Origin: Paramacrobiotus metropolitanus
Taxonomy: Eukaryota; Tardigrada; Eutardigrada; Parachela; Macrobiotidae
DNA: 64,000 nucleotides
Reading direction: 5' to 3'
Assembly (NCBI RefSeq): GCF_019649055.1
Contig: NW_026570280.1
Coordinates: 310,001-374,000, forward strand
The notes under the pieces are model-generated. The model saw nothing but the letters and a program-made list of their open reading frames with translations, had not been told where the DNA came from and made no database searches. A program made the position numbers and the translations under genes. How positions within the stretch are numbered: position 1 is the first letter of the stretch; every line of letters begins with the position of its first letter. Positions 9,812-63,073 of this stretch are shown here, in pieces.

Positions 9812-10150
9812 GGTCAAGTGGTAACGATAGGCTTGCACAGAAAAACTCAAGTAGTTATGTGAAAGTTCATTTTTACTTAACTGCGCGCAGCAACGCCGGC
9901 AGACTTCATAGACCTCCATGTAACCGCCGACTTTCCGATCGCGTACAGTTGGGTTGCTTCCTCATAGTGTTCAATCTCGGCGTCCATGTGGCGCGGCACC
10001 ACCATCTGCCCCAGCGTCAGTGTTGTGTCTGGCGCCCGTGCGAAAATCCCGCCAGCAGGAGGTCGGTCGGCGTCAGCAGCAGGGTCACCGTGCACATACT
10101 GTCCGATCGGATACTTTCGGCGCCGAGGTGAAAGTAAGGGCTGGGGCTTC
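9812..10150 (-). pseudogene. Relic of an alpha-SNAP-like gene
   Basis: On the minus strand at 10095-9877 a frame reads LGQMVVPRHMDAEIEHYEEA and then TQLYAIGKSAVTW. This aligns with the central TPR hairpins of the intact array members (LGQLVVPRDMDAG..HFEEAARLYEIGESAGHYH). The 3' flank (9812-9945) also matches the 3' flank of the 13.2-kb copy at 12920-13085. Only about 70 codons are recognisable, so this is the decayed leftmost member of the array. Confidence 0.65.
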
Positions 10151-10974
10151 TATAGAGTCTTACGGAGCATCACACTGCTGCGGCTCTGTGCATTCACATA
10201 CTGTACATCACATACAGACTGATTAATAGTTTTAAAATCAGTGCGCACCACCAGTACAGAACGTACAGCGCGCCTCACTACGGTGAGTGTTGGGATACAA
10301 ATTTCCGATCGGACTGTACTATGGGTGGTTGCTATTCAACCATGGAATCGTATTTGTGTGTAAGTGTGCACCGGGCAGTCCTCGTAAACGGAAATTTTGT
10401 TTGTACTGGATTAGAGAAGCTGTAAGCGATTGCTGGATCAAGCTTGTTGTTGGGAAAACCGAAACGTATGTTAGTCGTATTATCTGCACCCGGCGTTCAG
10501 TGTTGCGCATAATATATTGGCACGACGTGACCCACTGTGACAATCAGCACGTGAATCGAAATCGTCAGTCGACTCGCACATTGCTGGAGATAAGGATTTT
10601 AATTGCGTCTAATCGATGGCTCAAGCGCGGTTTGAAACATTGTGGCCCCAAAACAAACGTCCGTCCATCTAAACTTTGACTGACAATTATTCAAAACAGG
10701 CGATTATCTCTCTCCAAAACGTATCACCTCTATTATCACAATTACGATTACAGCGCAGAAATTTAATTAAGGAGAAAAGGAAACCAAATGAAAAGCGGAA
10801 CGATTGCCAGGTGCCACGACATGCAGTATTCGTCTTCAGTCGAAGAACCGTGCATCAACGAAACCCTGTCTCATCTTTGTACAGATAGGCAACGCTGTAC
10901 ATTATCGTTGTACAAACAACTGTAAGCGGTAGTTCAGTGACCAGTCAACTTCAGTGCACCTAACGGCCAGAACT
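10151..10974. other. Intergenic region, nothing recognised
   Basis: About 0.8 kb between the SNAP-like relic and the vWA gene. The short plus-strand frames (up to 130 codons at 10287-10679) have no recognisable domain, and they lack the GC-rich codon use of the neighbouring genes. The last part presumably holds the vWA gene promoter, but I see no clear element. Confidence 0.4.
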
Positions 10975-11729
10975 ATGGCCGCTTCAAGGCAACTAACGCT
11001 GCTTGGTAAGTTCTTATTTACGCAGTGCGGCGCAGCATAAACCTTCATCCCTTTAGCTGTTCATTTGCACATAAGTTCATTTGTACATAATATGCAACCT
11101 TTCCAGGATTTGCAGTGTTTATGGCTACTTGTACTGGCAGTGACATCGCTACAGCCGCCGACCAACGGCACCGCTCATCACCAACTCAAGGAACGGATAT
11201 GATTTTTGTCGTGGACGTATCCCATAGCATGTTCACATCCATGTGCGCCGTCAGACGGGTATGCCTGCAACTCTTCAGTCTGGCCAGCAGCTCTAACAAT
11301 CCGGGTGGCTTCGTGCTGGTGCCCTTCCACGGTGACGCCGTGGGTCCGGTGCAGGTGTTCGACCATTCCGGATATGGTCTGCCTACTGCGATCGACTACC
11401 TGGGCGCATACGGCAACAGCGACACACCGCAGCCGTGTCTGGAAGCGTTGCTGGCCGCCTCGGAGCGAGGCGGTAACCGCGCTCCCATCTACGTCTTTAC
11501 CGACGCCCCACCCACGAACCCCGGCTTGCTTTCCTCCGTCTTAGTGTCGGTCCTCTTAAAGCGCCAAATGGTGATTTTTATCGTGCCCACCCCGGAAGGG
11601 AATGCTATCGCCGCCGAAATGGCTGTCTACCAGACGATCGCCGATGTCACCAGTGGTCAACTAATTACAACGACTGAAACCATGCCCGACATCGACGCGG
11701 CTTGGCTGTTCGGTGCGATACGCCGCTGA
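10975..11729 (+). CDS. Secreted single-domain vWA protein (hemicentin-type VWFA)
   Basis: Exon 1 (10975-11005) starts MAASRQLTLLG and ends at a GTAAGT donor. Exon 2 (11107-11729) follows a TTTCCAG acceptor and continues GFAVFMATCTGSD. Together they give a hydrophobic signal peptide of about 22 residues that is split by the intron, which supports the start. The mature part is one von Willebrand A domain: MIFVVDVSHSM contains the MIDAS D-x-S-x-S, followed by LVPFHGDAVGPVQVF, a GGN turn and YVFTDAPPTNP. The F-x-L-V-P-F-H-D/G and Y-V-F-T-D-A blocks are those of the N-terminal domain of hemicentins (extracellular matrix). At about 217 residues it has none of the Ig/EGF repeats of hemicentin, so it is either a free-standing paralog or a fragment. 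Metal-dependent ligand binding is inferred. Confidence 0.75.
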
Positions 11730-13169: not shown

Positions 13170-14918
13170 TTAACGCGATCCGTGGTATTCGGCATCACGC
13201 AGGCGCTGCAGCGCGCGGCCCAACATCATCCGGCTCCACTGGCTCAGACGGCGGCCAGCGTAGTTGAATAACCTGTCGGCAGCGTAGTCGTTGGGAAAGC
13301 CGCTTCCGGCGTAGCGAAAGAAGCCAGCATTGCTGCCGGTTCCGCGCGGGCCCGTCTCGTCGTCCGCCTGCAGGAATTTCTCCACGCTGTTGACGGTAAA
13401 CTTGTTCTGGACGGAGTCCATCGCCTGGCGCAGGACGCGGTGCTGGCTGCTCTTCACGAACTCCGGATGCTGGTCCTCGAAGCGCACCAGCGCCATCTTG
13501 GCGGCGAAGGGGCCGTCGCGGCACAGATAGACCAGGACCGCCCGGAAGGCGGCGGCGTCAGCATCTCTTAAGTAGGAGAAGCGGTTGGCCCGGGAGTAGT
13601 CGGCAGCGGAGAAGCTGGCGCCATCGCCGCCGGCATCCGCGCTCTCGACCCAGTCCCGCGTGTCAGGACGACCCATCTAGTAATAATTAGCCGCACATTA
13701 TTTTTATTATTGCACATCCTGTACAAGCTTGTCCGGTAATTTCTGACGAATCACCACAGCGAATTAAATAAATTTGTGTGTTACGCCAAACTTCACACTA
13801 CGGCGCGCCAAGCCACACTGTTTAAACACGTAACATGCATTTGGCTGACTGCTGGCTTGGTAGTTGGTTCACCACGTTTATTTTATGAGAATATTAGCAG
13901 CTGCCTGGCGGAAGGTGGCTAGAAGATGGTCGGTGCAGTAAGCGACAATCTGACTGCGGAGCGCTTTTAGGGAATTTGATAAACGTAGTGAAGTGGCCAC
14001 CGTTATAAGCGCAAACTTCGCGCTAGCTGTACCTTTACGTAGGCAATACCGGACAAGCTTGTACATGTACGTCTACGCATACGTATTATACTTCTACCTT
14101 TGTACACTGCAAAGTGTGAACATGTATCTGTGCTATTCAAAATAATTATTAATAAAAATAGGTTCCAGTAGCTTGAAACCGCAAAACACATAATTATGTA
14201 GTCGGTAGTCGTAAACGAGAACTTGCAACTTTCGAAATTCATCACAAATACCCTCGCTATAACGAGTTGGCAAATATGATGGAATAATGCAGGATTAGAG
14301 GGAAAACAACCGAATTTCTTGCCTCTTCGAAAATGTTGAGCGCGCGGCGATAGTCGCCCTGGCGCGCCGCCAACTCGCCGACGGTCAGCCACGCCCTATC
14401 CGCATAGTAGCGTTCCCACCCATTGCCGGCCTCGTACAACCGGGCCGCTTGCTCGAAGTAGGCCATCGCGCGGTCCAGGTCACACGTCATGACCATCTGC
14501 CCCATGGTGGTGTAGTGCCAAGCGGCGCCGGAGAAAGCCCCGGCCTCGGTCAGCAGCGTGGCCGCCGTCTGCAGACAGTGCAGCGCGTCGCCACGGTTGT
14601 CCACCTTGAGGAAGCAGTCACTGGCTTCCTTTAGCAATCCGCTGGCCGTGTTGTCATTGCTGCTCCAGTCTCCGAAGGTCTTCTCCGACCGATCGGTGCC
14701 TTTTCGAACGGCGCCTTGAGGCGGGCGGCCTCCTGGAAGGCGGAGCCGGCGGCCTCCCATTGGCGCTCCAGTTTGAAGAAATTGCCGGCGCGGCGGAACA
14801 GGTCGCTGGCTTCCAAGTGGTCGCCATGCGCAGCCGCCGTGCGGGCGGCGGTCAACATGCGCTCCGTCGAGCGCTTCTCGGGCATGGTGCACATAAAACT
14901 GGGTGCTGGCGCGTTCAT
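13170..14918 (-). pseudogene. Alpha-SNAP-like gene, copy 1 (disrupted)
   Basis: The N-terminal half (14918-14314) starts MNAPAPSFMCTMPEKRS after an intron acceptor CTCCAG and contains the TPR-type helices EASDLFRRAGNFFKLERQW, LLKEASDCFLK and FEQAARLYEAGNG. It changes frame near 14700, beside GAAAAGG. The C-terminal half (13676-13170) holds FRAVLVYLCRDGPFAAKMAL, LRQAMDS and LSQWSRMMLGRALQRL. Between them lie about 640 bp of AT-rich sequence not found in the paralogs. It ends in a plausible acceptor (ATTACTAG) before MGRPDTRD, so it may be a gained intron or an insertion. The frame change makes a pseudogene likely, though a single sequence error cannot be excluded. A LINE has also inserted in its 5' UTR intron. 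Confidence 0.7.
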
Positions 14919-14949
14919 TCTGGAGATTAGTAACAAATAACGTTAAGAC

Positions 14950-18294: not shown

Positions 18295-19362
18295 CTAGCA
18301 ATACACGGAATAATCGTGGGTGTGGTCAGGATCGACACTATAACGCGCCCTCTCGTGCTCCGCGTTACGCAGCAGCTGCACGGCGCGGCCCAACATGATC
18401 CGGCTCCAATCGGTCAGCACCCGATACCCGCTGTAGTCGCTACCCGTGCTGTATTGCCAGTAGGTACCGGTGTAGCCGATAGGGGACATGCCGTTCCCGC
18501 TGTCCGCCCGCAGCAGCGCCTCCACGCTCTTGGCCGTAAACGTGTCCTGGGCGTATCCCATCGCCTGGCGCAGAGTGCTGCGCTGGCTACTGCTCCGGAA
18601 CTCCGGCATGCGGTCCTCGTAACGCGCCACGGCGATCTTGGCGGCCAACGGTCCATCCCGGAGCAGATGACACACCACCGCCCGGAAGTAGGCACGGAAG
18701 CCAATAGTTTGGTCGGCATACACCCGGCGTCCGGGTTCGGAAACGCGTAGTAGCCCGCCATCAACGCGGTGTCGGCCATGTTGCGCTCGGCCACCTCCTC
18801 GAAGATGGCGATGGCCCGTGTGCAGTGACCTCGGCGCGCCTCCCAAGCGGCCACCAGCAGCCAGGTCATATCGGTGTTGTAGTGGCCCACCGCCTCTCCG
18901 ATCTCGTACAGCCGGGCCGCTTCTTCGAAGTACCGGATCCCGGCGTCCATGTCCCGCGGTACCACCAGCTGCCGCAGGGACGCGTAGTGTCCGGCGGCCG
19001 TGAAGAAATCCCCGGCGGTCGTTAGGAGGTCCGCACCCGTCTGCAGACAGGTCACGGCTTCGTGGTGGGCGTCCGCTTTCAGAAAGCAGTGGCTAGCCTC
19101 CAGCAGCAGACCGCTGGCCGTGCTGAGCGGGCGCTGGTGGTCGGGGACGGGCCGGTGTTGTCGTTCACCGGCGCCTTCAGCTGCCCGGCGTGGCGGTAGG
19201 CGATGCCGGCGTCCTGCCATTGGCGGGCCAGTTTATAGAAGTTGCCGGCTTTCGGTACAGATTGCTGGCTTCCATCAGGTCGTTGCGCTCGACCGCCCTG
19301 CAGGCGGCGGTCATTAGGAAGCGAGCGCGGTGCTCCGTGGATGACATGGTGCGTGCGCTCAT
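18295..19362 (-). pseudogene. Alpha-SNAP-like gene, copy 2 (frameshifted)
   Basis: Similarity to the intact copies runs over the whole length but is spread over three frames. The first part, 19362-19250, reads MSARTMSSTEHRARF and EASNLYRK. The middle part, about 19130-18720, reads STASGLLLEASHCFLKADA, LRQLVVPRDMDAGIRYFEEA and RAIAIFEEVAERN. The last part, about 18720-18295, reads YFRAVVCHLLRDGPLAAKI, RQAMGYAQDTFTAK and TDWSRIMLGRAVQLLRNAE. At least three frame changes lie in the first 150 codons and near 18720. The acceptor before the ATG (ATATATAG/GATG) and the upstream donor at 19719 are still present. It is closest to copy 3. It is probably a young pseudogene unless the assembly has indel errors. 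Confidence 0.7.
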
Positions 19363-19759
19363 CCTATATATCACATATTAGCAATAAACATAATAATAAA
19401 AAATTATATAAAAAGCGGAATAAATATTTTAAATGCTTAGTAACGGCTGATTGGCTAATCGCTGTGCTCGGTGCAAATAATAATTAACTATCAAAATTAA
19501 TATCAATGCGAGTTTATGTTGCACATTACTTTAAAAAAATATGGAATTAGGTAATGTAAGAAAGTAATGAACTGTATAAATCAAACGCCGCGAAATAATT
19601 TGGGGCCGACTGAATGTACCTAAAATCCAGTAATTTGCTGTTTTTCCCAACACACAATAATCCGTGGAGGAAGAAAAATGTTCCCTTAAGTAAATTCGGA
19701 TGCGACGCAAACAGCTTACTTGTAATAAGCGCCAACAACAATCCAAAAATAAACTCTGC

Positions 19760-27280: not shown

Positions 27281-27409
27281 GAAGATGAGGAACGGGAGCA
27301 AGTTCTTGCGGAACTGATCGCCATTCGAGAACGTTTGCTGGAGTTGGATGCGTTGTTGGACAAACACGTTGCTCGTGAGCGAAGACGCCGTCAGTGTACC
27401 ATTTTGTAG
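27281..27409 (+). CDS. Small CAAX-box protein, copy B (last exon; CTIL)
   Basis: After a clear acceptor (ATATTGCAG, 27280) the exon encodes 42 residues: an acidic-to-basic amphipathic helix, EDEEREQVLAELIAIRERLL, then LDALLDKHVARERRRRQ and CTIL-stop. CTIL is a CAAX box, and Leu at the last position predicts geranylgeranylation rather than farnesylation. A polybasic stretch just before the Cys is typical of plasma-membrane-targeted CAAX proteins. Position (plus strand, facing SNAP-like copy 4) and layout equal the other CAAX genes, although sequence similarity is low. The frame stays open leftward to an ATG at 27068, which would give 113 residues if this intron is not removed. The first exon is not securely placed. 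Confidence 0.5.
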   Translation, partial: EDEEREQVLAELIAIRERLLELDALLDKHVARERRRRQCTIL

Positions 27410-34780: not shown

Positions 34781-35099
34781 CGATGGGTGTGTTGGTTCGG
34801 ATTCTCAACAAGTTTGGTACTGCATTTCTTTAGCTTTTTCTTAGCGTCGTGATGCTCAATTTAACGCATCAGCAGACCGCTGTGCGTTCTAATGGTAGCT
34901 TTAACCGATATTTCTTAAAAATCATCAAATGTGGTACTGTGACCTTTACCTGTTGTTTCTGTCGTTTGCTCCGGACAAAAATTGGTTAGAGAATTTCATC
35001 TGTTTAAATATATATTTGTTGAATTATAGTAATATACAGTATTTTGGACGCCGATGATAATTATAAGTTTCACGCCATCCAGCAGAATTTCTAATGATT

Positions 35100-36710: not shown

Positions 36711-36757
36711 AGTAGCACAAGGATTTTGTAAGTATCGCAGTATTTTGTGCGGTATCA

Positions 36758-40031: not shown

Positions 40032-43000
40032 CCCTCTATATATATCAACCTTTATTGAGTTCCGTTTGCTGTTATGCGGCAAAAAACCCCTATTCCAAAT
40101 TAGGGGAAAAGGCACGCATAACCTATTCTTTTTTAAAGTTTTGTAAACAAAACTCGCGCAACGGAAGCATCAATAAGGTAAAAGACCGCTTGCTCTCCTC
40201 TACATTACACATGAATCTTTTTTTTTGGTAATTTTAAAGAAGGAACTATAGAATATAGAGATTATAAGAGCATATTATGTGGAAAGGACGATCACAATAC
40301 AATTATGCGGGGTGTATGGCAAGCAACAATGCAACACACACCAACCACATATAAAATGAGCAAAATTATTAAACACACATCCATGCACCGTTCTTCGATG
40401 GAGACCCGGAGCGTCATTGGGTGGTTTGCGCTTGGTGGTTGCGTCGGCTGCACACTGTTACCGAGAAGCGAGTAGGGATAAAACGAGTCAGTGTGAAAGC
40501 GAGAGAGACGTAGAACAGAGATAGAGTCAGTCAAAGATTCGACGGCAGTGGAATCTCTGTGAGGTTAAACGCACTAGCTGAATACGACAAACATAAGGTT
40601 CGATTTAACTTTCGAACACTCTCCAATGTAGCAACGAAACCGATTTTTCCAACATTACATCGAAGTTTCTTCAAAAACTTAAGAAAACGTGAAAGTTTTT
40701 CAGATTTCACTGTACGACTATTTGTCAGACACCGAAATATAACTCCAGTTAAGTTTTGGAAAAAACTGAAATTTCAACAAAATATGGAATATTAATTATT
40801 AAAATTATTTTGCACGACTACTTATACAGTGAAAGGCTTAGTCGGGCCAGGTGGGAGCCACAGTTTATCGGATCGTTTATTAAATAACGCATAACTACAA
40901 CAAACAGCAATTTTAGCCATTTTCTTACAGATTAAAGATGAAGTACTAGTGTTACAGCCAGATATTTGTTTGAATAAGCAGGTTAAATTATGGCTCGTTT
41001 TTTTGGGAATCATTCCCAATGATCCCACGGCAATGTGATGTTGTTTAACAGTCCACCCTAATGCCGCGAAATCGTTTTCAAGGGAAGCGTATCGTTTATT
41101 TTTCCTTAAATCAGCATTGCTAAAACTTTTAACAGTTTCTAAAGGTATTGTTACTTCGACAAGATCAATACGTTTCAAAGATCTATTAATTACAGTGAGA
41201 TCAGGGAAGACGTTAGTTACAAGAATATCTGAAGGAATAGTATCAACATGCGAGGAATAACAGTCAGGCGCTAGATCGCAAAAGACTTCGGTGTTTTTGT
41301 CGGTGTCCTTGATTGCAGCGGTTAGACCATCAGCCAGCGCTTTAACAACACTATTATGTCTCCATGTGAAACGGGCAGACTGTAATGAAACTTGACAGCC
41401 ATTAAGAATATGTCCAAGTGTGCCCGCTGCCTGATCACATAAGGAACACAAAGGAGACACCAAATTTGCCCCATTTATGGAGATTAGTAAAAGAAGGGGC
41501 AACATTCAGCCGGGCTTGGGAAAGAAATAAGCATGTGCTGCGTGGGAGATCGAATTTCAAGGAAGACCAATAATTATCAGCGTCTTCCTCATTAGCAACA
41601 CGCAGCCAGGCACCTTGTTGTACAAGACTGGCCACGTGTTGCTTTCGCTCCAAAGTAATGATGGAATAAACATGGGAGGTTACCCTGTCTTTGGCGGCGG
41701 CACGGGCATTGTTTATTGCGGTGTTACTGCCATCACTGGCCACAACAGCGGCACGGGCTTTCTGAGCTTCGGACTGGATTACTGGGGCAAATTGGTGCAT
41801 AAGATTAGAAGGCGATTGTAACACTTCATCGGCAGCACACCGCACTACTGGGTCAGCACTGGAGATTAAACAGTCAACAATCAGACCACTTCTGGCTTGA
41901 TAAGCAATATTTTTAATTGATTCGAAATTAGCGCCTTGTGGCAAAAAAAGCGAATCAGTATTCGCACACTGAGGAAGACGAAGCCATTTTTTCAAAAATT
42001 TATTAGTTAAGCTTTGCAATTTATCGATCGCTGCAGTATTTAGGTCATGCACAGTCAGAAGGAAACGCACTGATTGAACAATATAGTTATTGTAAATCCA
42101 TAGCTTATATTCGTCGCGCAAAGAAAGCTGGTCAGTTTTTAAAAGCAGATCCATTAAACAATTGTTAACGGTTTTTTGCGCGTTTCGACGTTGGTTATTA
42201 GAGAAGACATATATATGAACCGAGAAATTTCATTGGCTCCGATTTAATATTGCGCAAAGCAGTTCCGTTAATGAAAAATTCATAGTCAGAGGCAACACCG
42301 CCCGTCAGAGAAAAAGATCTGCATTTCGAAACTTTCAAGAAAAGGCCCATATTAACCATTCGCACATTTACATCACGCAAAAGTTTATCCATAGACCGCT
42401 TATTATTTGTTGTTAAAGTCAAATCGTCAGCAAAAGCGAGCGCAACGACTTTTTTACCATCGATCTCAATGCCGCAATTGTTATTTTGTTTAAGATATTC
42501 GAGCACAGGGTTAAAACAAAGCAAGAACAGAATGCAGCTCATTGAATCTCCCTGAAATAGGCCAACCTTAAAAGGGATAGGATCAGTAATAAAATCGTTG
42601 TTCTGAACTTTCACAGATAAGCCATCATAATAAGCCAGAATATACCTTATGTAAGATGCACTGATTCCGTAACGAGAGAGAACATCCTTTAACAGCTCGT
42701 GCCTTACTGAACCATAGGCATTCGCGATGTCCAGCCATGCTACATGTAAAGCGCGTTTCAGTTTACGTTGCTTCTCAATAATGTGTTGTAATTTTAAAGA
42801 GTGTTGCCCACAGCCGTTCATGCACTCGATAAAGCCCTTTTGCACTGAAACATCAATAATGTTATTCTTTTGAACAAACGAAAGGATCCGGTTGGAAATG
42901 ACTGTATGCAAAATTTTAGCACAACAACTGGTCAGAGTAATTGGCCGGTAGTTAGAGCAATCAGCGGCGTCGCCAGTTTTATACAAAAGAACGGTGCGAC

Positions 43001-44147
43001 CGACTTTCCACGAAGCTGGTGGATTAGCAGACGATACGATTTTATTGTACATACTAGCTAAAAAATTATGTAACACCGGAAAGTTTTTAAAAATACCATA
43101 GCCAAGTCCATCGAGACCGGAGCCAGTGCGCCCTGATTTTTTAAACAGTGCCCTGCTCACTTCCCTGCCCAGAATTGGAGATTCATTAAAAGGAACACAC
43201 ACCTCTGGCATTTTAATTTCATTCAGCCAAGACAAATCGAGCGCTTCGAGATTATCCAGATTGTACGTCTGCCTGAAATGCGATTCGATCTCGGTTTTAT
43301 TCAGGCAATTTGAATTAGTACCTGAGGATTTCGAAAACTTTTCTTTTATAAAGTCAAACCGATTTTTAAGAAAAAACTTTTCATTGGACTGAATTTCAGA
43401 AGCTTTCCTTAGTTCAGCAATCTGATTACATAACCTTTTATTGAGGACGCGGAGATGCTGTAGAGCGAACACATCCTCTTCAGGTAACTGAAAACCACGT
43501 GCCTGCAGTCGCCTACGTTTGCGAACAATTTTGGCGATACGGCCAGCTATTTTAAATTTTTCGTCAAGTAACTCACGAGGAACAGATCGCTTCAAAATTT
43601 TATCAAAAAAATTTGTTTTCGTCTTACAGTTAAGAATTTTAATAAGATAATTGGCAAGGGACCAGGTTAACAATTCAATATTATCCGATGCAGAAATATG
43701 ACCCAGTAGTTCAGCATTCTTAAGCCGAGAAGTAATATCGCCCAAAAAGTTTTCAAACCTGACGGAAACTTCAGGAGAGAGCGATTCCCAATCAGGCATA
43801 AGGATTTTAGGACGGGAACAATTTTCCTGGCAAATCTGGGCAATACTTGGTGCACGATCGTCATTAGAAATGATTCCGGACAATAAATGATACAAATTAT
43901 CTACATTTTCAACGGTATAGTTAACAGTGCGGCTATTAGTGGAAGTCATTTTTTTAAAATAATAATTCGCTAATACAAACAATAATAATGATATGATCGG
44001 ATGGTAACGAACGGGAGAGCAAGGGTGATTGGGTGGAATATTGGCAAATTTCCGTCGGAAACGCCGAATATTGGGCAATCACACGTTGAACGATGAAGTT
44101 AAGCAGTCTAACCGAAAGCGAGCAGCACGGTGCGAGCGATGGTCAAG
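40032..44147 (-). mobile_element. RLE-type LINE (family II), nearly full length, frames broken
   Basis: It lies between two halves of a sequence that is continuous in the duplicate (50.45 kb). The main frame (43949 or 44078 down to 42198) has a novel N-terminal helical region and then reverse transcriptase: GRTVLLYKTGDAADCSNYRP, WLDIANAYGSVRHELL (motif A), GLFQGDSMSCILFLL (B) and LAFADDLTLT (C). Frames 42154-41435 and 41505-40822 continue the thumb, a CCHC knuckle (CSLCDQAAGTLGHILNGC) and a PD-(D/E)xK-like nuclease (FPDLTVINRSLKRIDLVEVT). This places it among R2/R4/NeSL-like elements. Two frame changes (about 42170 and 41470) separate the frames. The insertion replaced about 11 bases of target, and no clear target duplication is seen. 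Confidence 0.85.
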
Positions 44148-44317
44148 GCTTCAGTCAGTTACCTGCCAGCTGATTATTCGCTCTGGCATCTGATTAACGA
44201 ATTACTCAGCATGTAAAACGTTTCGGTTTTCTCCGCAAACTGCTCGAAGAACACGCGGTTTCATTGTGGGATATTTCAAGAGGATTTATCGTTTTGGTAT
44301 CATTCGGTGCGAAATCA

Positions 44318-45159
44318 ATGGCCGGGTCCGTTCTGCCAGAGAATATCGGCGGGGATGCCGAGCCGGTGACTTTCGCCAGTGTACGTTAGTTGTCTAAACC
44401 GGAAGTCTATTCTTCAGATTGTAATCAACTCAAAGATTTGTCAAGCGTAAGGACGTTAGCCGTTTTTTTGTCGCTTATGAATTCTCGATAAGTAGAAGTA
44501 TTTCTTATAATCGAATCCTTTTAATCCTGCTTATTAATTATTGATATATTATATACATAATACAGTAGAACGATTTTTTTCATACCCGATCATTTTACAT
44601 ACAATTAGGATTTTTCGTAAATAGATCACCTCTACACTGAAGTATCCTAATTTCTAATTACAACAAAGTTTTTTTTAAAAAAATCGTTTTTATTGGTGAA
44701 AAACTTTGCCACGAAATTCAACCCATAACGAACGAAGTTTGTACTACTCGTAATTAGCCATCCCACAACACATACCCCAAACCCACATCTTCGGCGATTA
44801 TTCAAGTAGCGCGTTACAAGGGTGGTAAACAGTACTAGTAACCGCTTGATAAAAACAAGTACAGTACATACGGAGTAGGTACGCAAACTGAACGAAACAA
44901 CGAGGAAATCCGCAGTAACACTATGATTATTTTTCAAATCCGTGATTGTCGTTCGCCGTTTGAATAGTGAATGCCTTTGCAGGGCTGGGAGTATGTGGCG
45001 TAACTGCAGGCAGCACTGGCTCGCCAGCAGGCGATACGGGAACAACGACTGAAAGCCGCTGCTGAACGACGCGCTGCTGCTGAACAACGCCGTCAACGCG
45101 CACGCACCGGACCGAAGAAGACGACCACAAGCAAATATCTGTGTTGTACCATAATGTAA
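44318..45159 (+). pseudogene. Small CAAX-box gene, copy D' (chimeric duplicate with premature stop)
   Basis: Exon 1 (44318-44380) resembles copy F (MAGSVLPENIGGD...) rather than copy D, while intron and exon 2 (44983-45159) are identical in layout to copy D, including the TAA at the seventh codon of exon 2. The donor is GTACGT instead of GTAAGT. The gene is therefore a chimera made at the duplication breakpoint between about 44381 and 44395. As with D, the CAAX end SKYLCCTIM is intact. Confidence 0.65.
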
Positions 45160-45479
45160 CGATGGGTGTGTTGGTTCGGATTCTCAACAAGTTTGGTACT
45201 GCATTTCTTTAGCTTTTTCTTAGCGTCGTGATGCTCAATTTAACGCATCAGCAGACCGCTGTGCGTTCTAATGGTAGCTTTAACCGATATTTCTTAAAAA
45301 TCATCAAATGTGGTACTGTGACCTTTACCTGTTGTTTCTGTCGTTTGCTCCGGACAAAAATTGGTTAGAGAATTTCATCTGTTTAAATATATATTTGTTG
45401 AATTATAGTAATATACAGTATTTTGGACGCCGATGATAATTATAAGTTTCACGCCATCCAGCAGAATTTCTAATGATTA

Positions 45480-45970
45480 TTATTACTTACAACATGCGAG
45501 CAGACGACCCATTATAAATTTCGAGCCTAATGGAAGAAAAACAAACAATTTCGTGGCAATCGAAACCCAGACCGATATGCAGACTAAGCCGTGATCTAAA
45601 GGTAGGCACAGAACTAGCATCAAGAATCTTACGATAAACAGAAAGAATTTTGCCCCGAGACACTAAGCACGAAGCCATTTTCCGATAGGCGACGCTAAGG
45701 CGGAAGAAAACCAATAATCCGCACAGTCGGAATTAGCGAACACGAAAGCGTAGTGACAAAAGACGGGCACGCATGGCCTACCGGCGTTGCCCGTGGACCT
45801 GGGCGTGCCCTGCAGCATCTGCTCTGCGCTCGGCCCAGTATCCACCGGGTCCGTTGACCTATAGCGCCACGGAAGGTGCCGGCCGAGGCCATCGCGGGGA
45901 TACCACCGCCCAAGCTGTTCGTGGGGATTCCGGTGCTCCATACAGGCTCAGAGTATTCATACACAAAAAT
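45480..45970 (-). pseudogene. Unknown Cys-containing gene, pseudogene copy 2
   Basis: Duplicate of 35100-35590, with the same broken frames and one extra G in a run near 45898. It adds no information on function beyond the first copy. Confidence 0.45.
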
Positions 45971-46617
45971 AGTATGGACTCATAAATTACTGTTGCTCCG
46001 TGAACATACGACTACATTTGAAATTAAATGACCTTTTCATAATATCTCCAATAGCAACAGTATGCCATGCGAACTTTGCCAGCAGATCGAACTGTATCCA
46101 GAAGAGCTCGCAGTGGGAAAACTGACAATGCAGCACCTCGGGAATTGCAGACATCCGTCACATCGCCGAACTCATGCCTCTAAATCAACATCAACATACT
46201 AGTAATCGCTGAAGGTGGCTCGCGTAACGATAGTTCCCGGCAGTCACAAAGCAGCTGAGTAAGACTAGACGAGTACAATTATTCGACTGCAATGCCTCGC
46301 AGGGAAGGGAACAAGCATGTGCTGTCACATTGCTGTGCAGACGTACATATTTGCAGGGAAGTGTATCCCCACGTGTCAATTACGAGTACTTTCAAACGAT
46401 ACGGCAGTTGTCCGAATACATAGCAGGATCATCACGTCAAAGAAACGAAACACATACTACCGAGTCGTACAACGTTCGAATCTTTCGACAACAAATTTTG
46501 CGCTTTTTGTTTTTCCATTCGCCAGTACGAATCGGAGTTACTGCCAACCGGCAAATGGACAATTCGCCAATACTGGGACCTGCATGCTGATTGCTAAATG
46601 CTTGTAAGGCGATATGA

Positions 46618-47090
46618 TTAGCAGAAGCATCGAAAAGTTTTTCCAATACCACACCGCTTGTTTTCGCAGACGATGGAAACACAGACAGACGTACACCGGG
46701 TCCAAGATGGCCTGCATGCCAAACAGCACCGCAATGGCACTGCAAAACGTCTGCAGCTTCGACAGCGGAATGAGAAATACGATTTTGTAGTAGATCACAC
46801 CCGGCAGCTAGCAGAGTGCGATGCTGACACTGAACAACGTCAGGACGACGAATGATCGCGTGCGAATTCGCGCCCGGAGTGGGCCAACCATAAAAGTGAG
46901 CTTTTCGTCAACTCCGTGCGAACCTGTTGCCATCTGGATGGCTTGTCCGGTGGCCGACGATCTCCAATGAAGCTTCTTCCACAGCAGAACAGATACGCAA
47001 CTGATTAGTGATGCAGGAGTTACTGAGCATGCGAACTACGAGAATTATCCGTTTCCACACACCGCACGAGGAACATGTAAACGTGTGGAG
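46618..47090 (-). pseudogene. Truncated GPCR relic, copy 2
   Basis: Duplicate of the relic at 36240-36710: IYYKIVFLIPLSKLQTF and AILDPVYVCLCFHRLRKQAV on the minus strand, with the N-terminal transmembrane segments missing. It differs from copy 1 by short homopolymer changes near 46632. Confidence 0.75.
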
Positions 47091-47135
47091 TAGCACAAGG
47101 ATTTTGTAAGTATCGCAGTATTTTGTGCGGTATCA

Positions 47136-47720
47136 ATGGCCGTGTTCGTTCTGCCAGGGAATCTCGGTGGAGATGCCACACCGGTAACGTTCGCCAAAGT
47201 TAGTTGTTTTCTAAATGCACAAGTTAATTTTTAAGATCCTATCCTTCGTATCTAACCTGAATAATCGCCATTACGGTACGGCTGTTTGTCCTTTTAGTGA
47301 CATGCGGCTTCTTTCCTATTTTGCCTATAAACGAATCAAAAGTTAAAAATCAAATACAAAAAATCCGTAGAAAACACAGTGACAGAAATAAAAGGAAAAG
47401 CGAAATTGCATTATACGAGTATCTATCTCCGTGTTTGTAACTGTGTACAATGTTATGATTGCGCTTCCCAGTTCTTGTGCGGACTGTTCCCAGTCTTCAT
47501 TCAGTGCCCAGTAATGACTGCAGTGCTGGGATTATTATGTAGGTATATCGAATGCGGAACTGGCTCGCCGTCGGGCCTTGCGCAATCAACGACTGCAAGC
47601 GGCTGCGGAGCAACACGCTGCTGAGCAACGCCGCCAAAGCGTTCGCGCCGGCCACCAGGTGACGATAAATTTATTTACGTATACATATGCTGTACGATCA
47701 TGTATATAAACGCTCGATGC
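47136..47720 (+). pseudogene. Small CAAX-box gene, copy E' (decayed)
   Basis: Duplicate of copy E, with the same lost donor, frame changes and lost CAAX end. The decay predates the duplication. Confidence 0.7.
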
Positions 47721-48560
47721 GTTTGACCGGATGATCACCAAGTTTGATTGCATTCTTACAGCTTTTTTCATCGTCATGATACCATATTTTACAACAACCG
47801 TTAACTGTGGTAGCTTGACCTTTACGGCTTAGCCTGCTGCGTACTGGTAACAACGAAGGCTTTCTGGATATGTAAATTTTGTTGAAATCATGCTTGGGAC
47901 GCCGATAACAGCTGCCACTGTCGCCCCATGAAATGTAAACGTGTATTTGCAAAATATTCTTTTCTACACCGCTTTCTCCGGCAACAACTGATCGTTAGTT
48001 TTTCATACGAGTGTGCCTGTAAACTTCTGTTAACTAAAAGAATGGCTGTTTCTGTCACGGTATGGTTAACAGAATAAAAAGATGAAAGAATCGTTTTTTT
48101 TTTCGATTTCGCGTCCTTTGTGGAAGTTGGTTTGAATTTCGATGTCAACAAGCTATTGTGCAATAAAAGCACATATACGTACAGATATACACCGGTACTA
48201 GAGTAACACGCATTAGAATGATTATTAACAAGCACCCGCACATTTTAATATGGGATAACCGAAACGGGACTGAAAACACACGTCTTGGGCTTAACAGTTA
48301 ATCCATTACAACATAATAATCATGTACGTACTATAATGTATAAATCCGTAGTATATGTGTTTGTACGTAGCCGTAAATACTGACAACTACATTCTGGTAG
48401 TACGTAAAGCGAAGACGATTAACTGCAACTACGGCCGTACGCTGTGACCGTGGTGGCACTGCGATGCGGAAAGGTCACGGCGAACGCTGCTATCGCGCGA
48501 TACAGATATGATCGTAATACACGTAAAAACAAGCAATCCCTGTTCGGGCGGCCCCGGCCC

Positions 48561-49583
48561 TTAACGCGTCTGTTCTTTCTCAGCGGCCCGCAGTTGCTCC
48601 AGCGCACGGCCCAGCATCACCCGGCTCCACTGTGTCAGGCTCAGGTAGGCAATGAAACCGCCGCCGTAGCGGTAGGGAGTACCGTGCCCCTTCTTGATGT
48701 TCTCGGCGTCCGTCTTCAACAGCTGCTCGATGCTCTTCACCGTGAACGCGTTCTCCGCGTCGCCCATCGCCTGGCGCAGGATCCCGCGCAGAGCACTACC
48801 GGCGAACCCCGGGTGTCGGTCCTCGCAGCGCACCACGGCCATCTTGGCGGCCAGTGGCCCGTCCCGACACAGATAGCACAACACCGCGCGGAAATAAGCG
48901 GTGTTGACCTTCTCCGGGTCCAGGTAGGTGTTGGCCCGGACGTAGTCGAAAGTCGGGAAGGTGTAGTGGTCGTAGGTCTCGGGGGCAGTCCCGTCGCGGA
49001 TGTTGAGCTGGGCCACGCCCTCGAAGATGGTGATGGCGCGCTGATAGTCGCCCTGCCGCGCCGCCAGTTCCCCGACGGTCAGCCAGGCCTTCTCCGCTGG
49101 GTCGCATTTGTGCGTTTTGCTGCTGGCCGCGTACAGGCGGGCCGCTTGTTCAAAGCAGGCCATCCCGCGGTCGACATCCCCGGCCGTCACCAACTGCCCC
49201 ATGGAGACGTAGTGCTCGGCGGCCGTGATGAAGGTCCCGGACTCCGTGAGGAACGTGGCCGCCGTCTGCAGACAGTGCAGCGCGGCGCGGTGGTTGTCCG
49301 CCTTGAGGAAGCAGTTACTGGCCGCCTGCAGGAGACCCGTGGCGGTGCATTCGTTGCCCCGTTTCAGTGAGGCCTGGAGGTGGGCAGCGTCCTGGTAGGC
49401 CGTGCCGGCGGCTTGCCATTCCCCGGTCAGGTTAAGCAAGTGGCCGGCGCGGCAGTACAGGTCGCGAGCCTCCACGGCGTGGCCATGCGCCGCCGCGGTG
49501 TCTGCCGCGTCCAGCAGGCGGTGGGCCCGGCTATTCTCCAACGGCATGGTGTCGTACGCAAAACGGGGTACGGGTGCGCTCAT
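48561..49583 (-). CDS. Alpha-SNAP-like protein, copy 7 (intact)
   Basis: 340 codons from ATG 49583 after GATTTCAG/G, differing from copy 6 by four residues that I can count: H in QDAAHLQAS, S in YVSMGQ, C in MACFEQ and G in VMLGRALEQL. All TPR-like hairpins and the LTQW-x-x-x-ML block are present. The 5' UTR intron donor is at 49900. Because copies 6 and 7 lie in the recent segmental duplication, they are the youngest pair of the array. Both frames stayed open, which suggests that the protein is under selection or that the pair is very young. Confidence 0.85.
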   Translation of the reverse strand: MSAPVPRFAYDTMPLENSRAHRLLDAADTAAAHGHAVEARDLYCRAGHLLNLTGEWQAAGTAYQDAAHLQASLKRGNECTATGLLQAASNCFLKADNHRAALHCLQTAATFLTESGTFITAAEHYVSMGQLVTAGDVDRGMACFEQAARLYAASSKTHKCDPAEKAWLTVGELAARQGDYQRAITIFEGVAQLNIRDGTAPETYDHYTFPTFDYVRANTYLDPEKVNTAYFRAVLCYLCRDGPLAAKMAVVRCEDRHPGFAGSALRGILRQAMGDAENAFTVKSIEQLLKTDAENIKKGHGTPYRYGGGFIAYLSLTQWSRVMLGRALEQLRAAEKEQTR

Positions 49584-49949
49584 CCTGAAATCATTTGCAT
49601 TATGAACTAATGGTGTTTGCTCACCATAGCCTTTCAACGAGCGTTTCTACAGCCACGGAAAAAAAAAACGAGTTGGTGGGATTAGGAAAGTGTTATATCC
49701 CGCTTTTCGTGTCCACACTCACAGAGAACTGAAACTTGTATTTTTTTCAAGAGAAACATTTTATTGAAACATTTTACTTTTTTCTAAGAAAAATTAACGG
49801 GAAAATTGCGAACGACCAAGGCAGAATTTAAACGTTATGTGCTGCAGATGATCCAGATGCGACGAATAATTTACGTAACTGCGGCAGCCATGTTCCTTAC
49901 CTAGAGCTAACAACAAGATTTCCCGAAAAGCTCTCTGTAACAGAATCGG

Positions 49950-50635
49950 ACAACAAATACTCTGGGTGATTATTTTTGGTCGCACTGTTTACAGTCACTT
50001 TACGTTACAGGTTACAATACTGTTTATTACCAGTATGATGCGCTGTAAACTGACGGATACACGTTTGCTCAGATGAAGGTTGAAAAAGCACTAGGCAGTG
50101 AAAACGGAACCGAGTGCAAAATATGGAGACGCGCCTGCTGTCTGGCTGTCTCTTAGCCCTGTAAAGTACTGTATTCCTGTAATACAGAGAGCAAGACAGC
50201 GCAAACAATGAATGCTGGTCTGCTTCCCTTATGGCCTCCCTTTGCTAAAAGTACAGACTGGTGTGATGTCATTCATACCTAGTGGGCAGAGCCACATCTG
50301 TCGGATCAGAAGCAAAAGACCTGATTGCTCTCTCATCTGGGTGTTTGCGTCTGCCCAATCTGGTGTCTATCTATGTGATCTATCTAATGCGGTGTTGTAG
50401 AAGCCCAATCTGATTTCTGATCTATCTGTGGTCTATGCGGTGTTGTAGAAGCTTCGTTGCAGCTCTGCTTCAGTCAGTTACCTGCCAGCTGATTATTCGC
50501 TCTGGCATCTAATTAGCGAATTACTCAGCATGTAAACGTTTCGGTTTTCTCCGCAAACTGCTCGAAGAACACGCGGTTTCATTGTGGGATATTTCAAGAG
50601 GATTTCTCGTTTTGGTATCATTCGGTGCGAAATCA
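49950..50635. promoter_or_regulatory. Head-to-head intergenic block between SNAP-like copy 7 and CAAX F
   Basis: Duplicate of 39560-40031 plus 44148-44317, here uninterrupted. Conserved words are GTGCAAAATATGGAGACGC, CAATGAATGCTGGTCTGCTTCCC and TCAGTCAGTTACCTGCCAGC. The start context TTCGGTGCGAAATCA directly precedes the CAAX F ATG. It is the best-preserved example of the divergent intergenic region in the window. Confidence 0.45.
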
Positions 50636-51467
50636 ATGGCCGGGTCCGTTCTGCCAGAGAATATCGGCGGGGATGCCGAGCCGGTGACTTTCGCCAATGT
50701 AAGTTAGTTGTCTAAACCGGAAGTCGGTTTTTAAGATTGTAGTCAATTTAAAACTTGAAGATTCGTCTTGCGTAAGGTCGACGGACGTTTTCCGCTTTTG
50801 CAACTTATGCCTTTTCGATATTGGCTACAATCGAATTCTTTTAATCCATGCTTATTAATTTTATTGATATAGTTCGATTTTTTGATATCCCGATCAATAT
50901 GCGTAGGCTTCTTCGTAAATTGGTCACTTCTATACTGAACTATCCTAATTTCGATTTAATTACAAGTTTTCAAAAAAAATCACTTTTACTGGTGAAAAAC
51001 TTTGTCCACGAAATTCAATAAAGAATGAAGTTAGTGCTCGTAGTTAGCCGTCTCCAGCTCCACAACATACGCCGAAACCCACATCCTCGGCAATTATTCA
51101 AGTAGCGCGCCACATGGGTGGTAAGCAGTCACCGGCTTATGAAAGCTGATAGGTCCGCAAAGCGACAGAAACAAGTTCAAACGACCAGGAAACCGAAGTG
51201 ATACTATAAAAATTTTTCACGTCCGAGGGTCCGTGACTGCGCTTCCCATGGGGACTGTCGTCGCGATTTAATCCATAGTGAATGCATTTGCCGGGCTGGG
51301 AGTTTGTGGCGTATCTGCAGGCAGCACTGGCTCGCCATCAGGCGATACGTGATCAACGACTGAAAGCCGCTGCCGAACGACGCGCTGCTGCTGAACAACG
51401 CCGCCAACGCGCACGCACCGCCCCGAAGAAGACGACAAGCAAATATCTCTGCTGCACCATCATGTAA
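50636..51467 (+). CDS. Small CAAX-box protein, copy F
   Basis: Exon 1 (50636-50698) encodes 21 residues from MAGSVLPENIGGD to FAN and ends AAT/GTAAGT. Exon 2 (51294-51467) is fully open: GWEFVAYLQAALARHQAIR, then a basic Ala/Glu/Arg helix (KAAAERRAAAEQRRQRART), APKKTTSKYLCCTIM-stop. The predicted product has 78 residues. The CAAX box (CTIM, farnesyl type) is preceded by a second Cys, as in the R-SNARE Ykt6 (CCAIM/CCIIM). The stretch HQAIRDQRLK resembles the complexin central helix (RQGIRDKYGIK); this is a short match and only a hint. The position aligned to the CAG acceptor reads CCG here. An in-frame alternative AG nine bases later (GGGAG/TTTGTG) would drop three residues. Membrane attachment by lipid is inferred; function is unknown. 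Confidence 0.6.
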
Positions 51468-56402: not shown

Positions 56403-56446
56403 GACCGAAGCGTAGCGAAGGTCCTCTATGTTCAGCGTTCATGAAA

Positions 56447-61019: not shown

Positions 61020-61612
61020 TTGAATAGCGTGATTCAGCGTAGCCTCGGATCAGCAAAGGTCCCGACAATCTTGGAGCCTCCTGGACTGAGCACATTGAAC
61101 GGGAAGCTTCCAAACGGCTTATCACTCTTCCCATGGAGAAATGGCCTCCCTCTGATATGGGATGTGACAGTTTCTGACACATTCGCTACTTCGTATATAG
61201 CTGGCTGTTCAGAAGCAGCGGGATCGGCTGCTGAAGAAGCGGAAGTGCGGAAGCGGAACTTCTATTCCGAACTCATTGATCGGCATTTTTTCCAGCCAGT
61301 GGCTCTCGAAACTATGGGAAGTTGTGGCGAAAGTACTCGCCAGTTCATCAATGAAGTCGGCCGGCGTATCCAAGAACAAACAGGAGAAGCGCGCGCTGTT
61401 CAGTATTTATGGCAACGTATAAGTGTGGAAATTCAGCGCGGAAACGCGGCTTCAGTCCTGGGGACGGTCGGGCGGATGGGGCCCTGCTGAGAGGCCGATC
61501 GAAGAACGCGTTGCACGTCAGTGTAAACGTAACGGCCGCGAGCATCCCCAATGTACCACCATGCAACCACCACACAGCAAGATGGATATCTTCTTAATAA
61601 AATAATTTTACC
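61020..61612 (+). mobile_element. 5'-truncated LINE (family I), endonuclease end
   Basis: The plus-strand frame 61020-61490 reads VPTILEPPGLSTLNGKLPNG, LSLFPWRNGLPLIWDVTVSD, TFATSYIA, FINEVGRRIQEQTGEAR and VEIQRGNAASVLGTVG. This is the C-terminal restriction-like nuclease domain of the same LINE family as at 15.0 and 52.4 kb. The catalytic PD of the 15-kb copy (RPDVIT) reads LPNG here, so the motif is lost. The copy ends near AATAAAATAATTTTACC. RT is absent. Confidence 0.75.
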
Positions 61613-61912
61613 AACCTAGAAACTGTTTTTGATCTTTGACTGCGACGGGGAACTATCGCGAACGCCAAACGCTGACAGAACAGGCTGAAACATGGTGAAC
61701 GTTTACAATAGCGAAGCAAAAACTTAATAAGGCCATTTGCATGGGTCAGCGGTACGACTATACGAAATCAACAATACTATGCGGTGGTGCAACTTAATGC
61801 AACGACCACAGTCAATAACGGTTGCAGATAAACGTTGCCAAAACAAAAGAAGGGAAAGATTCAGTGCACCCGCTGTTGCAGTTAAATGGGTGTACGCGTC
61901 TGATGTACTGAG

Positions 61913-63073
61913 TCAGACGTGGCGTCTGGCCTCGTGCCCCATGTCACGCAGCATCCGCAGCGCCCGGACCAGCATCATCTCGGTCCACGGTGTCAATTTG
62001 CGGCTGCCGTCGATACCCGTTCCGTCATCCTTCTTGGCCGTGCTACCGCCCCGCATATCCTGGAGCTGCTTGTTGAGGGCAACGAGACCAGCCAGTAGGG
62101 CGTCGTATGTCGCATCCCTGTCCTTGCCGGTGTACCCTCCGAAACGCGGACCATAACCGCCGCTGGGAGAGCGCATAGCCGGCTGCTGCAAGGTGCGCTC
62201 GATGTTCTCCGCGGTGAAGCGGTTCTCGGCATATCCCATGGCTTGCCGCAGGATCTCCAACTCCCCATCGAAGTCCTTCCATTTGTTTGTCGGCAACAGG
62301 TTCGCGAACCGGTCCACGGCTCTTTCAGCGGCCGACGGACCGTCGCGACACAAATAGCACAGCACCGCCCGGAAGTGACCTTTCCGCATTGTCCCCACGT
62401 CGCCGTTCCACCCCAGATGGACGACCTCATCGCCCGCGTTGAATTTCGGGGCGTTACGGTGGACCAGCCATTCGAAATGATTAATCGCGGCGGTATAGTC
62501 ATACTTCTGCGCCAACAATTCGCCCACCGTCAGCCACGCGGTGTTGGCGTAGTACTTCGTGCTGCCGACGACATCGTGCAGTCGCGCCGATTTTTCGTAA
62601 TACCCGATCGCTGCGTCGACGTCCCGCGGCGCCACCATCTTCCCCATGGAGGAGTAACAATTCGCGGCTGTGAGTAAATCCCCGGCTTCCGTCAGCACTT
62701 CAGCCGCCAAATGCAAACAGGCCACCGCCCCGCGGGTGTTGCCCGCTTTGACGAAACAACTGCTGGCTTCCTTCAGTAAACCAGCGGCCGTGTCGCTGGG
62801 CGTAGCGTCTTCCTTTCCGTATGGTAAGTTGCCGGTATCGTACGGGTCATTGTGGTTGTCGGCCGCCTCGAGCGGCGCTTTCAGCTCCCCGGCGTCTTGA
62901 TAGGCGGCGCCGGCCCACTGCCAACAGCCGTCCAATTTGAAGTGGTCGCCGGCATTGCGAAAGAGATTGCTGGCAGCCAACGGGTCGCCCTTCGCGGCCG
63001 CTGCGCGGGCGGCGGCCAGCAGGGTGCCGGCGCAGTGTTCCTCCGCGGTCATGGGGTGGCGAGCGCTGTTCAT
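61913..63073 (-). CDS. Alpha-SNAP-like protein, copy 8 (intact, divergent)
   Basis: 386 codons from ATG 63073 after TGTGTAG/G; MNSARHPMTAEEHCAG. It has the same hairpin order: ASNLFRNAGDHFKLDGCW, LLKEASSCFVKAGNTRGAV, AANCYSSMGKMVAPRDVDAA, YYEKSARLHDVVG, AWLTVGELLAQKYDYTAAI, GHFRAVLCYLCRDGPSAAER, LRQAMGYAENRFTAENIERT and LTPWTEMMLVRALRMLRDMG. It is the longest member. Extra residues lie in the linker after the first repeats (DNHNDPYDTGNLPYGKEDA) and before the C-terminal helix (a Gly/Lys/Asp-rich loop with STAKKDDGTG). The conserved QW of the LTQW block is PW. It is the most diverged member, with no CAAX gene upstream in the window, where a hAT-like element begins instead. It is probably functional, since the frame is clean. 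Confidence 0.8.
   Translation of the reverse strand: MNSARHPMTAEEHCAGTLLAAARAAAAKGDPLAASNLFRNAGDHFKLDGCWQWAGAAYQDAGELKAPLEAADNHNDPYDTGNLPYGKEDATPSDTAAGLLKEASSCFVKAGNTRGAVACLHLAAEVLTEAGDLLTAANCYSSMGKMVAPRDVDAAIGYYEKSARLHDVVGSTKYYANTAWLTVGELLAQKYDYTAAINHFEWLVHRNAPKFNAGDEVVHLGWNGDVGTMRKGHFRAVLCYLCRDGPSAAERAVDRFANLLPTNKWKDFDGELEILRQAMGYAENRFTAENIERTLQQPAMRSPSGGYGPRFGGYTGKDRDATYDALLAGLVALNKQLQDMRGGSTAKKDDGTGIDGSRKLTPWTEMMLVRALRMLRDMGHEARRHV

Follow-up and report, generated by a model that had tools for sequence, protein, structure and literature searches.

A tandem array of alpha-SNAP-like genes interleaved with CAAX microprotein copies in the tardigrade Paramacrobiotus metropolitanus

Introduction

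Alpha-SNAP/Sec17, the TPR superhelix protein of family PF14938, is a conserved housekeeping adaptor. Its SNARE-contacting basic residues (K122, K163, K203 and R239) and its NSF contacts (D217, E249, E252, E253 and D290-D293) are listed in PMC11532144. The text of an NSF structure paper (10.7554/eLife.38888) contains none of the six residue names sought. In a sperm study, alpha-SNAP carrying L294A bound less NSF than the wild type, could not be released from syntaxin by NSF and inhibited exocytosis (PMC3138754). At the soybean locus Rhg1, alpha-SNAP copies with an altered C-terminal NSF site, the alteration being a C-terminal polymorphism, stand in tandem, neighbouring genes are co-amplified and a retroelement lies within the locus (PMC6712407). 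Multiple alpha-SNAP paralogues also occur within one species in Giardia lamblia, where there are three; one of them showed no binary interaction with NSF in yeast two-hybrid assays, hydrophobic residues are present in a loop, and the available portion of that paper mentions no tandem array (PMC6172762). HAP40 (F8A; structure 6EZ8) is a SNAP-family TPR protein diverted to a non-SNARE client (PMC7725122).

The window analysed here is a 64,000-nucleotide stretch of P. metropolitanus DNA (NCBI RefSeq assembly GCF_019649055.1, contig NW_026570280.1, positions 310,001 to 374,000 of the forward strand; position 1 is its first letter). Like Rhg1, it combines tandem alpha-SNAP-type genes with altered C-termini, co-duplicated neighbouring genes and a retroelement, which encodes a reverse transcriptase between two near-identical duplicates (Table 1). 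Unlike those of Rhg1, the tardigrade copies are strongly diverged among themselves, and their SNARE face and membrane loop are lost as well. None of the literature searched links tardigrades with the NSF attachment protein, and the sex transcriptome paper on P. metropolitanus (PMC11191345) does not use the word SNAP in its main text. Searches for RNA families and tRNAs returned none in the window.

Table 1. Coordinates of the features in the window
Feature	Position	Strand	Details
S0, SNAP-like relic	9877..10149	-	tblastn match 9910-10050 to S3, 51% over 47 aa
S1, broken SNAP-like	13170..14922	-	frame change and insert of ~0.6 kb
S2, broken SNAP-like	18340..19374	-	several frame changes
S3, intact SNAP-like, 348 aa	22959..24005	-	PF14938 91.9 bits; ORF 22959-24125
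S4, intact SNAP-like, 339 aa	28106..29125	-	PF14938 102.3 bits; ORF 28106-29167
S5, intact SNAP-like, 341 aa	31959..32984	-	PF14938 95.8 bits; ORF 31959-33047
S6, intact SNAP-like, 340 aa	38182..39204	-	PF14938 111.5 bits; ORF 38182-39267
S7, intact SNAP-like, 340 aa, near-identical to S6	48561..49583	-	PF14938 111.6 bits; ORF 48561-49646
S8, intact SNAP-like, 386 aa	61913..63073	-	PF14938 76.6 bits; ORF 61913-63196
CAAX microprotein gene, 69 aa, ending CCTIM	3292..3815	+	exons 3292-3316, 3513-3553, 3672-3815; gene model with splice sites; no lesion seen
CAAX-family last exon, ending CTIL	27281..27409	+	acceptor present; upstream exons not found
CAAX-family copy, broken	30389..30855	+	acceptor and frame both lost
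CAAX-family copy	33939..34780	+	in-frame TAA early in last exon
CAAX-family copy	36758..37325	+	CAAX-end frame lost
CAAX-family copy	44318..45159	+	in-frame TAA identical to that in 33939-34780
CAAX-family copy	47136..47703	+	CAAX-end frame lost
CAAX-family copy	50636..51467	+	last-exon frame open; splice acceptor AG to CG
Tandem duplicate, copy 1	33923..40024		98.85% to 44302-50404
Tandem duplicate, copy 2	44302..50404		98.85% to 33923-40024
Reverse transcriptase ORF between the duplicates	42198..44078	-	RVT_1 E 2e-26

The SNAP-like genes

The preliminary description counted eight SNAP-like genes and two relics; the array itself is real, while the tally becomes six ORFs that are intact, two copies that are broken and a single relic, all on the minus strand. 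Nine intact SNAP-like copies were found on the whole contig, beside no fewer than eight that are broken or fragmentary, and the two canonical alpha-SNAPs of P. metropolitanus are encoded on a different contig. A profile search bears out membership in the SNAP family, with PF14938 scoring 76.6-111.6 bits in all six intact window ORFs (curated cut-off, 25 bits). Descent from alpha-SNAP is supported by a profile of the array proteins, which matches alpha-SNAP chains in the PDB at E 6e-30. In the alignment, the homology covers most of the protein, last helix included. The profile reaches gamma-SNAP (2ifu) at just E 0.0027, which led us to reject a gamma-SNAP origin, and a HAP40 origin was rejected as well, no HAP40 chain being present among its 24 PDB matches (E up to 0.1). 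A tree sets the nine array proteins apart from the two canonical ones, with support of 100/100. Lineage specificity, also proposed at the outset, is upheld within the scope of the searches: none of the 8000 candidates scored in each protein search is a close relative from outside P. metropolitanus, and as canonical SNAPs of other species lay beyond those candidates, this result speaks to the absence of close relatives alone. A CDC48_N profile search of the genome returned a single partial match, which does not identify NSF itself.

Alignment with alpha-SNAP indicates which functional features are lost and which are kept. The absence of the membrane loop and of the penultimate leucine, noted by eye in the preliminary description, holds for all nine intact copies: the 15-residue N-terminal hydrophobic loop between helices 1 and 2 is missing and L294 has no counterpart (0/9), whereas both canonical proteins retain the two features. 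S5, S6 and S7 do end in EKEQTR, as described. On the SNARE side, five of the six basic positions examined are lost across all nine proteins; K122, K167, K203 and R239 (rat numbering; the K203 column adjoins an insert and is less certain) are changed in every one of them and retained by both canonical proteins, while the K163 position holds K or R in six of the nine and A in one of the two canonical proteins. On the NSF-facing patch, D217 and E252 are retained in 9/9 array proteins. The E249 position is G in the array and T or G in the canonical pair, the E253 position is N in eight array proteins and D in the ninth, and little of the C-terminal acidic set is left unchanged. The array proteins also carry inserts relative to alpha-SNAP, one of them preceding the D217 helix. 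With D217 and E252 kept throughout, and K or R at the K163 position of six copies, the proteins may still touch NSF or SNAREs to some extent, although the two acidic residues may instead be retained for structural reasons.

Among the 36 pairs of array genes, dN/dS is always below 1 and ranges from 0.40 to 0.75 in 35 of them; the exception is S6/S7, the youngest pair, at 0.08, where 16 differences are synonymous and 4 nonsynonymous (binomial p 2.7e-7). The canonical pair gives 0.06. Nine array ORFs of 332-386 codons are still open at pairwise dS of 0.36-1.16 (0.07 for S6/S7). Judged by these substitution patterns, the array SNAP-like genes are fast-evolving yet not dead.

The CAAX microprotein family

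Small prenylated proteins, such as the G-gamma subunits, have about 70 residues, a helical look and a C-terminal CAAX box. The CAAX microproteins resemble them in length, helical look and box, with prenylation predicted, and differ in that the family has no Pfam match (none for the four sequences tested, nor for 27056-27409) and in that its matches to PDB entries reach E 0.36 at best. None of 899 protein-database candidates at E up to 10 is a counterpart, and on these three grounds identity with G-gamma, complexin or paralemmin was rejected. Family members were found on contigs C1, C70 and C111, which makes it more than a product of chance.

Eight loci lie in the window, all on the plus strand, with last exons at about 3.7, 27.3, 30.7, 34.6, 37.2, 45.0, 47.6 and 51.3 kb. 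Only that at 3292-3815 is complete by a three-exon model common to three genes outside the window, and the CAAX box CCTIM ends all four complete gene models. The CCTIM or CTIL ends that had been ascribed to the family occur in the helix frame in five of the eight window loci; in the other three this frame is lost. Lesions are present in six. The copies at about 30-51 kb begin with a distinct first exon, apparently a fusion of the first two, and were for this reason judged by lesions and not by exon number. At 27281-27409, tblastn matched the exon to itself alone, so its kinship rests on base similarity past the stop and on its place. Comparison of the last exons at 34.6 and 51.3 kb gives 9 changes that are synonymous against 4 that are nonsynonymous, which indicates protein-level constraint on these two genes until recently. 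AG dinucleotides past the lesions at 34.6, 45.0 and 51.3 kb are candidate in-frame acceptors.

Do the two families form a unit?

A functional membrane module made up of SNAP-like and CAAX proteins appears quite unlikely. Several units do place the two genes head to head about 1 kb apart, including one at C60:157-160 kb, and a conserved block of ~80 bases is shared by four array spacers and that unit; the low number of nonsynonymous changes between the CAAX exons of one pair points the same way. However, part of the block also lies upstream of a SNAP-less CAAX gene, and the 3' flanks of S4, S5 and S7, taken as a control, have stretches in common too. Around the CAAX genes on C1, C70 and C111 the search for the block gave no match better than E 0.034, which spans 16 bases, and it gave none in the spacer adjoining a broken copy at 376 kb. 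The state of the genes themselves also argues against a module: the CAAX copies that adjoin the intact S4-S7 have lost acceptors or carry stops or frameshifts, an open exon being seen solely on the right-hand side of S3, no CAAX copy was found right of S8 up to the next SNAP copy, and the nearest SNAP piece to the single complete window gene is a relic 6 kb off. The preliminary description had proposed that the two act as a pair and had set beforehand, as evidence to the contrary, CAAX genes without SNAP-like neighbours in related genomes; such genes were seen within P. metropolitanus itself, complete on C70 and C111, contigs without a SNAP match. Nor is the alternation it reported strict: the families are interleaved, but CAAX copies follow each other directly at 33.9-37.3 kb and 44.3-47.7 kb. 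Going by their sequence, the array CAAX genes resemble passengers in decay more than they do partners.

Discussion

With moderate confidence, we favour the reading that the array encodes alpha-SNAP-derived, lineage-specific TPR scaffolds that no longer act as SNARE adaptors, accompanied by a co-duplicated and mostly decaying CAAX family. Homology and dN/dS show a tandem family descended from alpha-SNAP whose TPR superhelix is maintained by selection, and the alignment shows the loss of the membrane loop, of most basic residues that contact SNAREs and of the C-terminal tail that activates NSF. Such proteins would no longer bridge SNAREs to NSF, and may be soluble helical scaffolds for some other client, as HAP40 is for huntingtin, a likeness of role that is an analogy alone. 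The CAAX microproteins are a separate, dispersed gene family, copies of which were carried along as SNAP-CAAX units duplicated; the lesions observed in most array copies suggest that these have probably lost function.

Divergent yet working SNARE-NSF adaptors for a special membrane step are very unlikely: the homology does run over most of the protein, but the loop, the penultimate leucine, K122, K167, K203 and R239 are gone from every copy. A modified disassembly module, as first suggested, is likewise unlikely because the SNARE-contact lysines have gone too. A brake on NSF, the other early suggestion, is possible through an NSF-binding decoy, as D217 and E252, both among the NSF contacts listed in PMC11532144, are kept in all nine proteins while the tail has changed. 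The decoys would dock on the NSF N-domain through this patch, neither holding SNAREs nor activating NSF, and so sequester it; the exocytosis block by L294A alpha-SNAP (PMC3138754) lends this some plausibility. We nevertheless consider it rather unlikely, given the mostly changed C-terminal acidic set, the N at the E253 position in eight of nine proteins, the possible structural role of D217/E252, and an L294A block that depends on binding to syntaxin, an ability that the array proteins probably do not have. An extension of it, also unlikely, would make the array an animal counterpart of Rhg1, in which decoys keep the NSF patch, shed nearly all SNARE and membrane features and set NSF activity by their dosage, possibly at membranes via intact CAAX microproteins. 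Least probable of all is a non-functional array whose copies decay after duplication; it would account for the broken copies and for dN/dS values well over that of the canonical pair, but not for nine long frames still open at such dS, for dN/dS below 1 in every pair, or for the mainly synonymous S6/S7 changes.

If the array encodes such scaffolds, a selected family that keeps the fold but sheds membrane, SNARE and NSF-activation features would provide a natural series on a SNARE-free SNAP superhelix. It would also offer an animal comparison for soybean Rhg1, whose altered-tail SNAPs contribute to nematode resistance, and the CAAX family adds a set of short genes with no counterpart among the protein-database candidates compared.

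A divergent family of SNAP-like genes

In the Paramacrobiotus metropolitanus assembly (169.8 Mb), profile analysis with PF14938 reports hits for six minus-strand ORFs of the window, S3-S8 (76.6-111.6 bits, cut-off 25; 339-386 residues from the first methionine), and the SNAP-family assignment proposed in the preliminary description therefore stands for all six. The whole-genome search returns at least 17 matches, 15 on contig C60, of which the window is a part (C60:310001-374000), and two on contig C45. The C45 pair are canonical alpha-SNAPs, each in one open frame (345.7 and 336.8 bits). Searching the genome with one array protein at E up to 1 adds one weak match, on contig C8 (two stops, E 0.068). 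In total, C60 carries nine intact SNAP-like copies and at least eight broken or fragmentary ones. For the published assembly, parts of its report name ONT and Illumina data and a longest scaffold of 4.48 Mb (PMC11191345); single frameshifts could be errors.

The nine intact array genes are maintained by selection and evolve faster than alpha-SNAP. Pairwise dN/dS (Nei-Gojobori count) lies at 0.40-0.75 in 35 of the 36 array pairs; the exception, S6/S7, gives 0.08. For the canonical pair, whose dS is saturated at 3, it is 0.06. Between S6 and S7 there are 16 synonymous and 4 nonsynonymous differences, against ~5 and ~15 predicted from site numbers (binomial p 2.7e-7). Among the nine array proteins 62 columns are invariant, 41 being common to a canonical protein and 21 array-only. 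A midpoint-rooted tree separates the array from the canonical pair (support 100/100) and groups S4-S7 (100/99) and S8 with S11-S13 (96/98).

Searches of 5.8 billion proteins, with 8000 candidates scored in each, return five matches with S6 and seven with the array profile, all on one 930,367-base contig, the size of C60; since canonical SNAPs fell outside the scored candidates, these counts inform on close relatives only. In the library of papers searched, none has both "tardigrade" and "NSF attachment protein".

Features lost and retained

The nine intact array proteins and the two canonical ones were aligned, rat numbering being transferred by structure alignment. The preliminary description had noticed by eye that the hydrophobic N-terminal loop and the penultimate leucine (L294) are missing, and the alignment confirms both: a single 15-residue gap removes the membrane-touching loop between helices 1 and 2 from all nine array proteins, the loop being present in both canonical ones, and the penultimate leucine is found in both canonical proteins and in none of the nine. 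Seven of the damaged or partial copies have a legible N-terminal part, and by our reading of the alignments they lack the loop as well; its loss therefore probably preceded expansion of the array. Among six basic positions examined, R116 and K167, which we take to be contact residues, K122, R239 and K203 (the least certain of the aligned positions, its column adjoining an insert) are altered in all nine. At the K163 position six array proteins have K or R, whereas one canonical protein of the two has A. As for the NSF-facing acidic residues, D217 and E252 are retained in all nine, the E249 position is G in the array, the canonical proteins likewise having T or G there, and the E253 position is N in eight proteins and D in one. 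Roles of the other residues follow passages of a review (PMC11532144) and portions of the studies of the K122E,K163E and F27S,F28S mutants (PMC6353594) and of L294A, for the penultimate leucine (PMC3138754).

Array organization and the CAAX genes

Features of the window and related loci (positions without a contig prefix are window positions)
Feature	Position	Strand	Remarks
S0	9877-10149	minus	SNAP-like relic
S1	13170-14922	minus	SNAP-like, broken: frame change and ~0.6 kb insert
S2	18340-19374	minus	SNAP-like, broken: several frame changes
S11, S12, S13	C60:432.9-440.2 kb		intact SNAP-like copies, outside window
SNAP-like broken copies/fragments	C60 near 159.0, 376.3, 386.5, 408.9, 413.2 kb		outside window
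Complete CAAX gene	3292-3815	plus	no lesion seen
Complete CAAX gene	C60:157305-157817		outside window
Complete CAAX genes	C111, C70		one on each contig
CAAX relatives	C1, two places		one without first exon by pattern, other seemingly frame-changed
CAAX relative	C60:380736		outside window
CAAX-family exon	27281	plus	open, good acceptor; no first exons found; kinship based on place and similar bases past stop codon
CAAX copy	30.7 kb	plus	acceptor and frame both lost
CAAX copies	34.6, 45.0 kb	plus	early in-frame TAA
CAAX copies	37.2, 47.6 kb	plus	frame lost
CAAX copy	51.3 kb	plus	acceptor lost
Non-coding spacer block, ~80 bases	29703-29780, 33439-33516, 39662-39746, 50044-50128		upstream of CAAX copies
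Part of spacer block	2658-2711		upstream of CAAX gene without SNAP partner
36-base part of spacer block	17123-17158
Reverse transcriptase ORF	42198-44078	minus	RVT_1 E 2e-26; in 40024-44302, between duplicates
Second reverse transcriptase piece	15394-16611		E 3e-6, slightly under cut-off
von Willebrand A ORF	11091-11729	plus	PF25106 E 1e-21
SPOC-domain ORF	20730-21230	plus	marginally above cut-off, E 1.7e-5
348-residue ORF	54420-55466	minus	nematode-type chemoreceptor GPCR profiles match weakly, below cut-off
Fragments of the 348-residue ORF	36244-36612, 46640-46990		related pieces further left on C60
Inverted repeat	56210-56355		70-base arms, 89% complementary, 6-base gap
Minisatellite	56445-59845		~3.4 kb; units ~74 and ~104 bases

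The CAAX genes encode microproteins and are interspersed with the array. Eight plus-strand last exons of this family lie in the window, and six of the eight loci bear lesions, some of which are copies of one, since the 34.6/37.2 and 45.0/47.6 kb loci lie in a tandem duplicate. This recent duplication (33923-40024 against 44302-50404) shows 98.85% identity; of its 61 mismatches, 20 fall in SNAP coding sequence and a single one between 34.25 and 38.0 kb. That interval is nearly identical to about 44630-48380, divergence at the duplicate ends being about 2-6%, a pattern suggestive of gene conversion or of an assembly effect within the interval.

The four complete CAAX genes share a three-exon structure, encode 69-74 residues and all end in CCTIM; an alignment of the family returned no match in the protein database. 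The genes at 3292-3815 and C60:157 kb (dN/dS 0.81) show little constraint, over a short length; among the other pairs of complete genes, three give 0.25-0.36 and two are saturated.

The preliminary description suggested that the SNAP-like and CAAX proteins may act as a pair at membranes, as a modified disassembly module or a brake on NSF. What speaks most strongly against an obligate pair is that intact S4-S7 stand beside damaged CAAX copies. This argument is softened by the 9 synonymous and 4 nonsynonymous differences between the 34.6 and 51.3 kb last exons, which indicate a protein constrained until recently, and by AG dinucleotides that directly follow the 34.6, 45.0 and 51.3 kb lesions and could serve as in-frame acceptors. 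Nor are the CAAX genes tied to SNAP neighbours in this genome: C1, C70 and C111 return no SNAP match with PF14938 or with an array protein (E up to 1), and the SNAP piece nearest to the complete gene of the window is relic S0, 6 kb off. A head-to-head order is seen in several units at 0.95-1.26 kb spacing and also at C60:157-160 kb, a unit that pairs a complete CAAX gene with a broken SNAP copy. Duplication of whole units accounts for the alternation of the two families, and a shared function is not needed. The ~80-base block is common to the spacers of S4, S5, S6 and S7 and to the C60:157-160 kb unit, is absent from the spacer of the 376 kb SNAP copy and did not turn up around the C1, C70 and C111 CAAX genes. 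Its partial copy upstream of a SNAP-less CAAX gene hints that it belongs with the CAAX gene; as a control, the 3' flanks of S4, S5 and S7 have common stretches too.

Possible functions

The retained D217 and E252 are the ground for reading the array proteins as NSF decoys, which we consider unlikely; such an array would resemble soybean Rhg1, where altered-tail SNAPs are, in the portion of the study cited, impaired in promoting NSF function (PMC6712407). The array consists of alpha-SNAP-derived TPR proteins, which have most likely ceased to join SNAREs to NSF. Their superhelix may instead bind a new client, a pattern that we liken to HAP40, which passages of a published analysis trace to a SNAP-like ancestor (PMC7725122).
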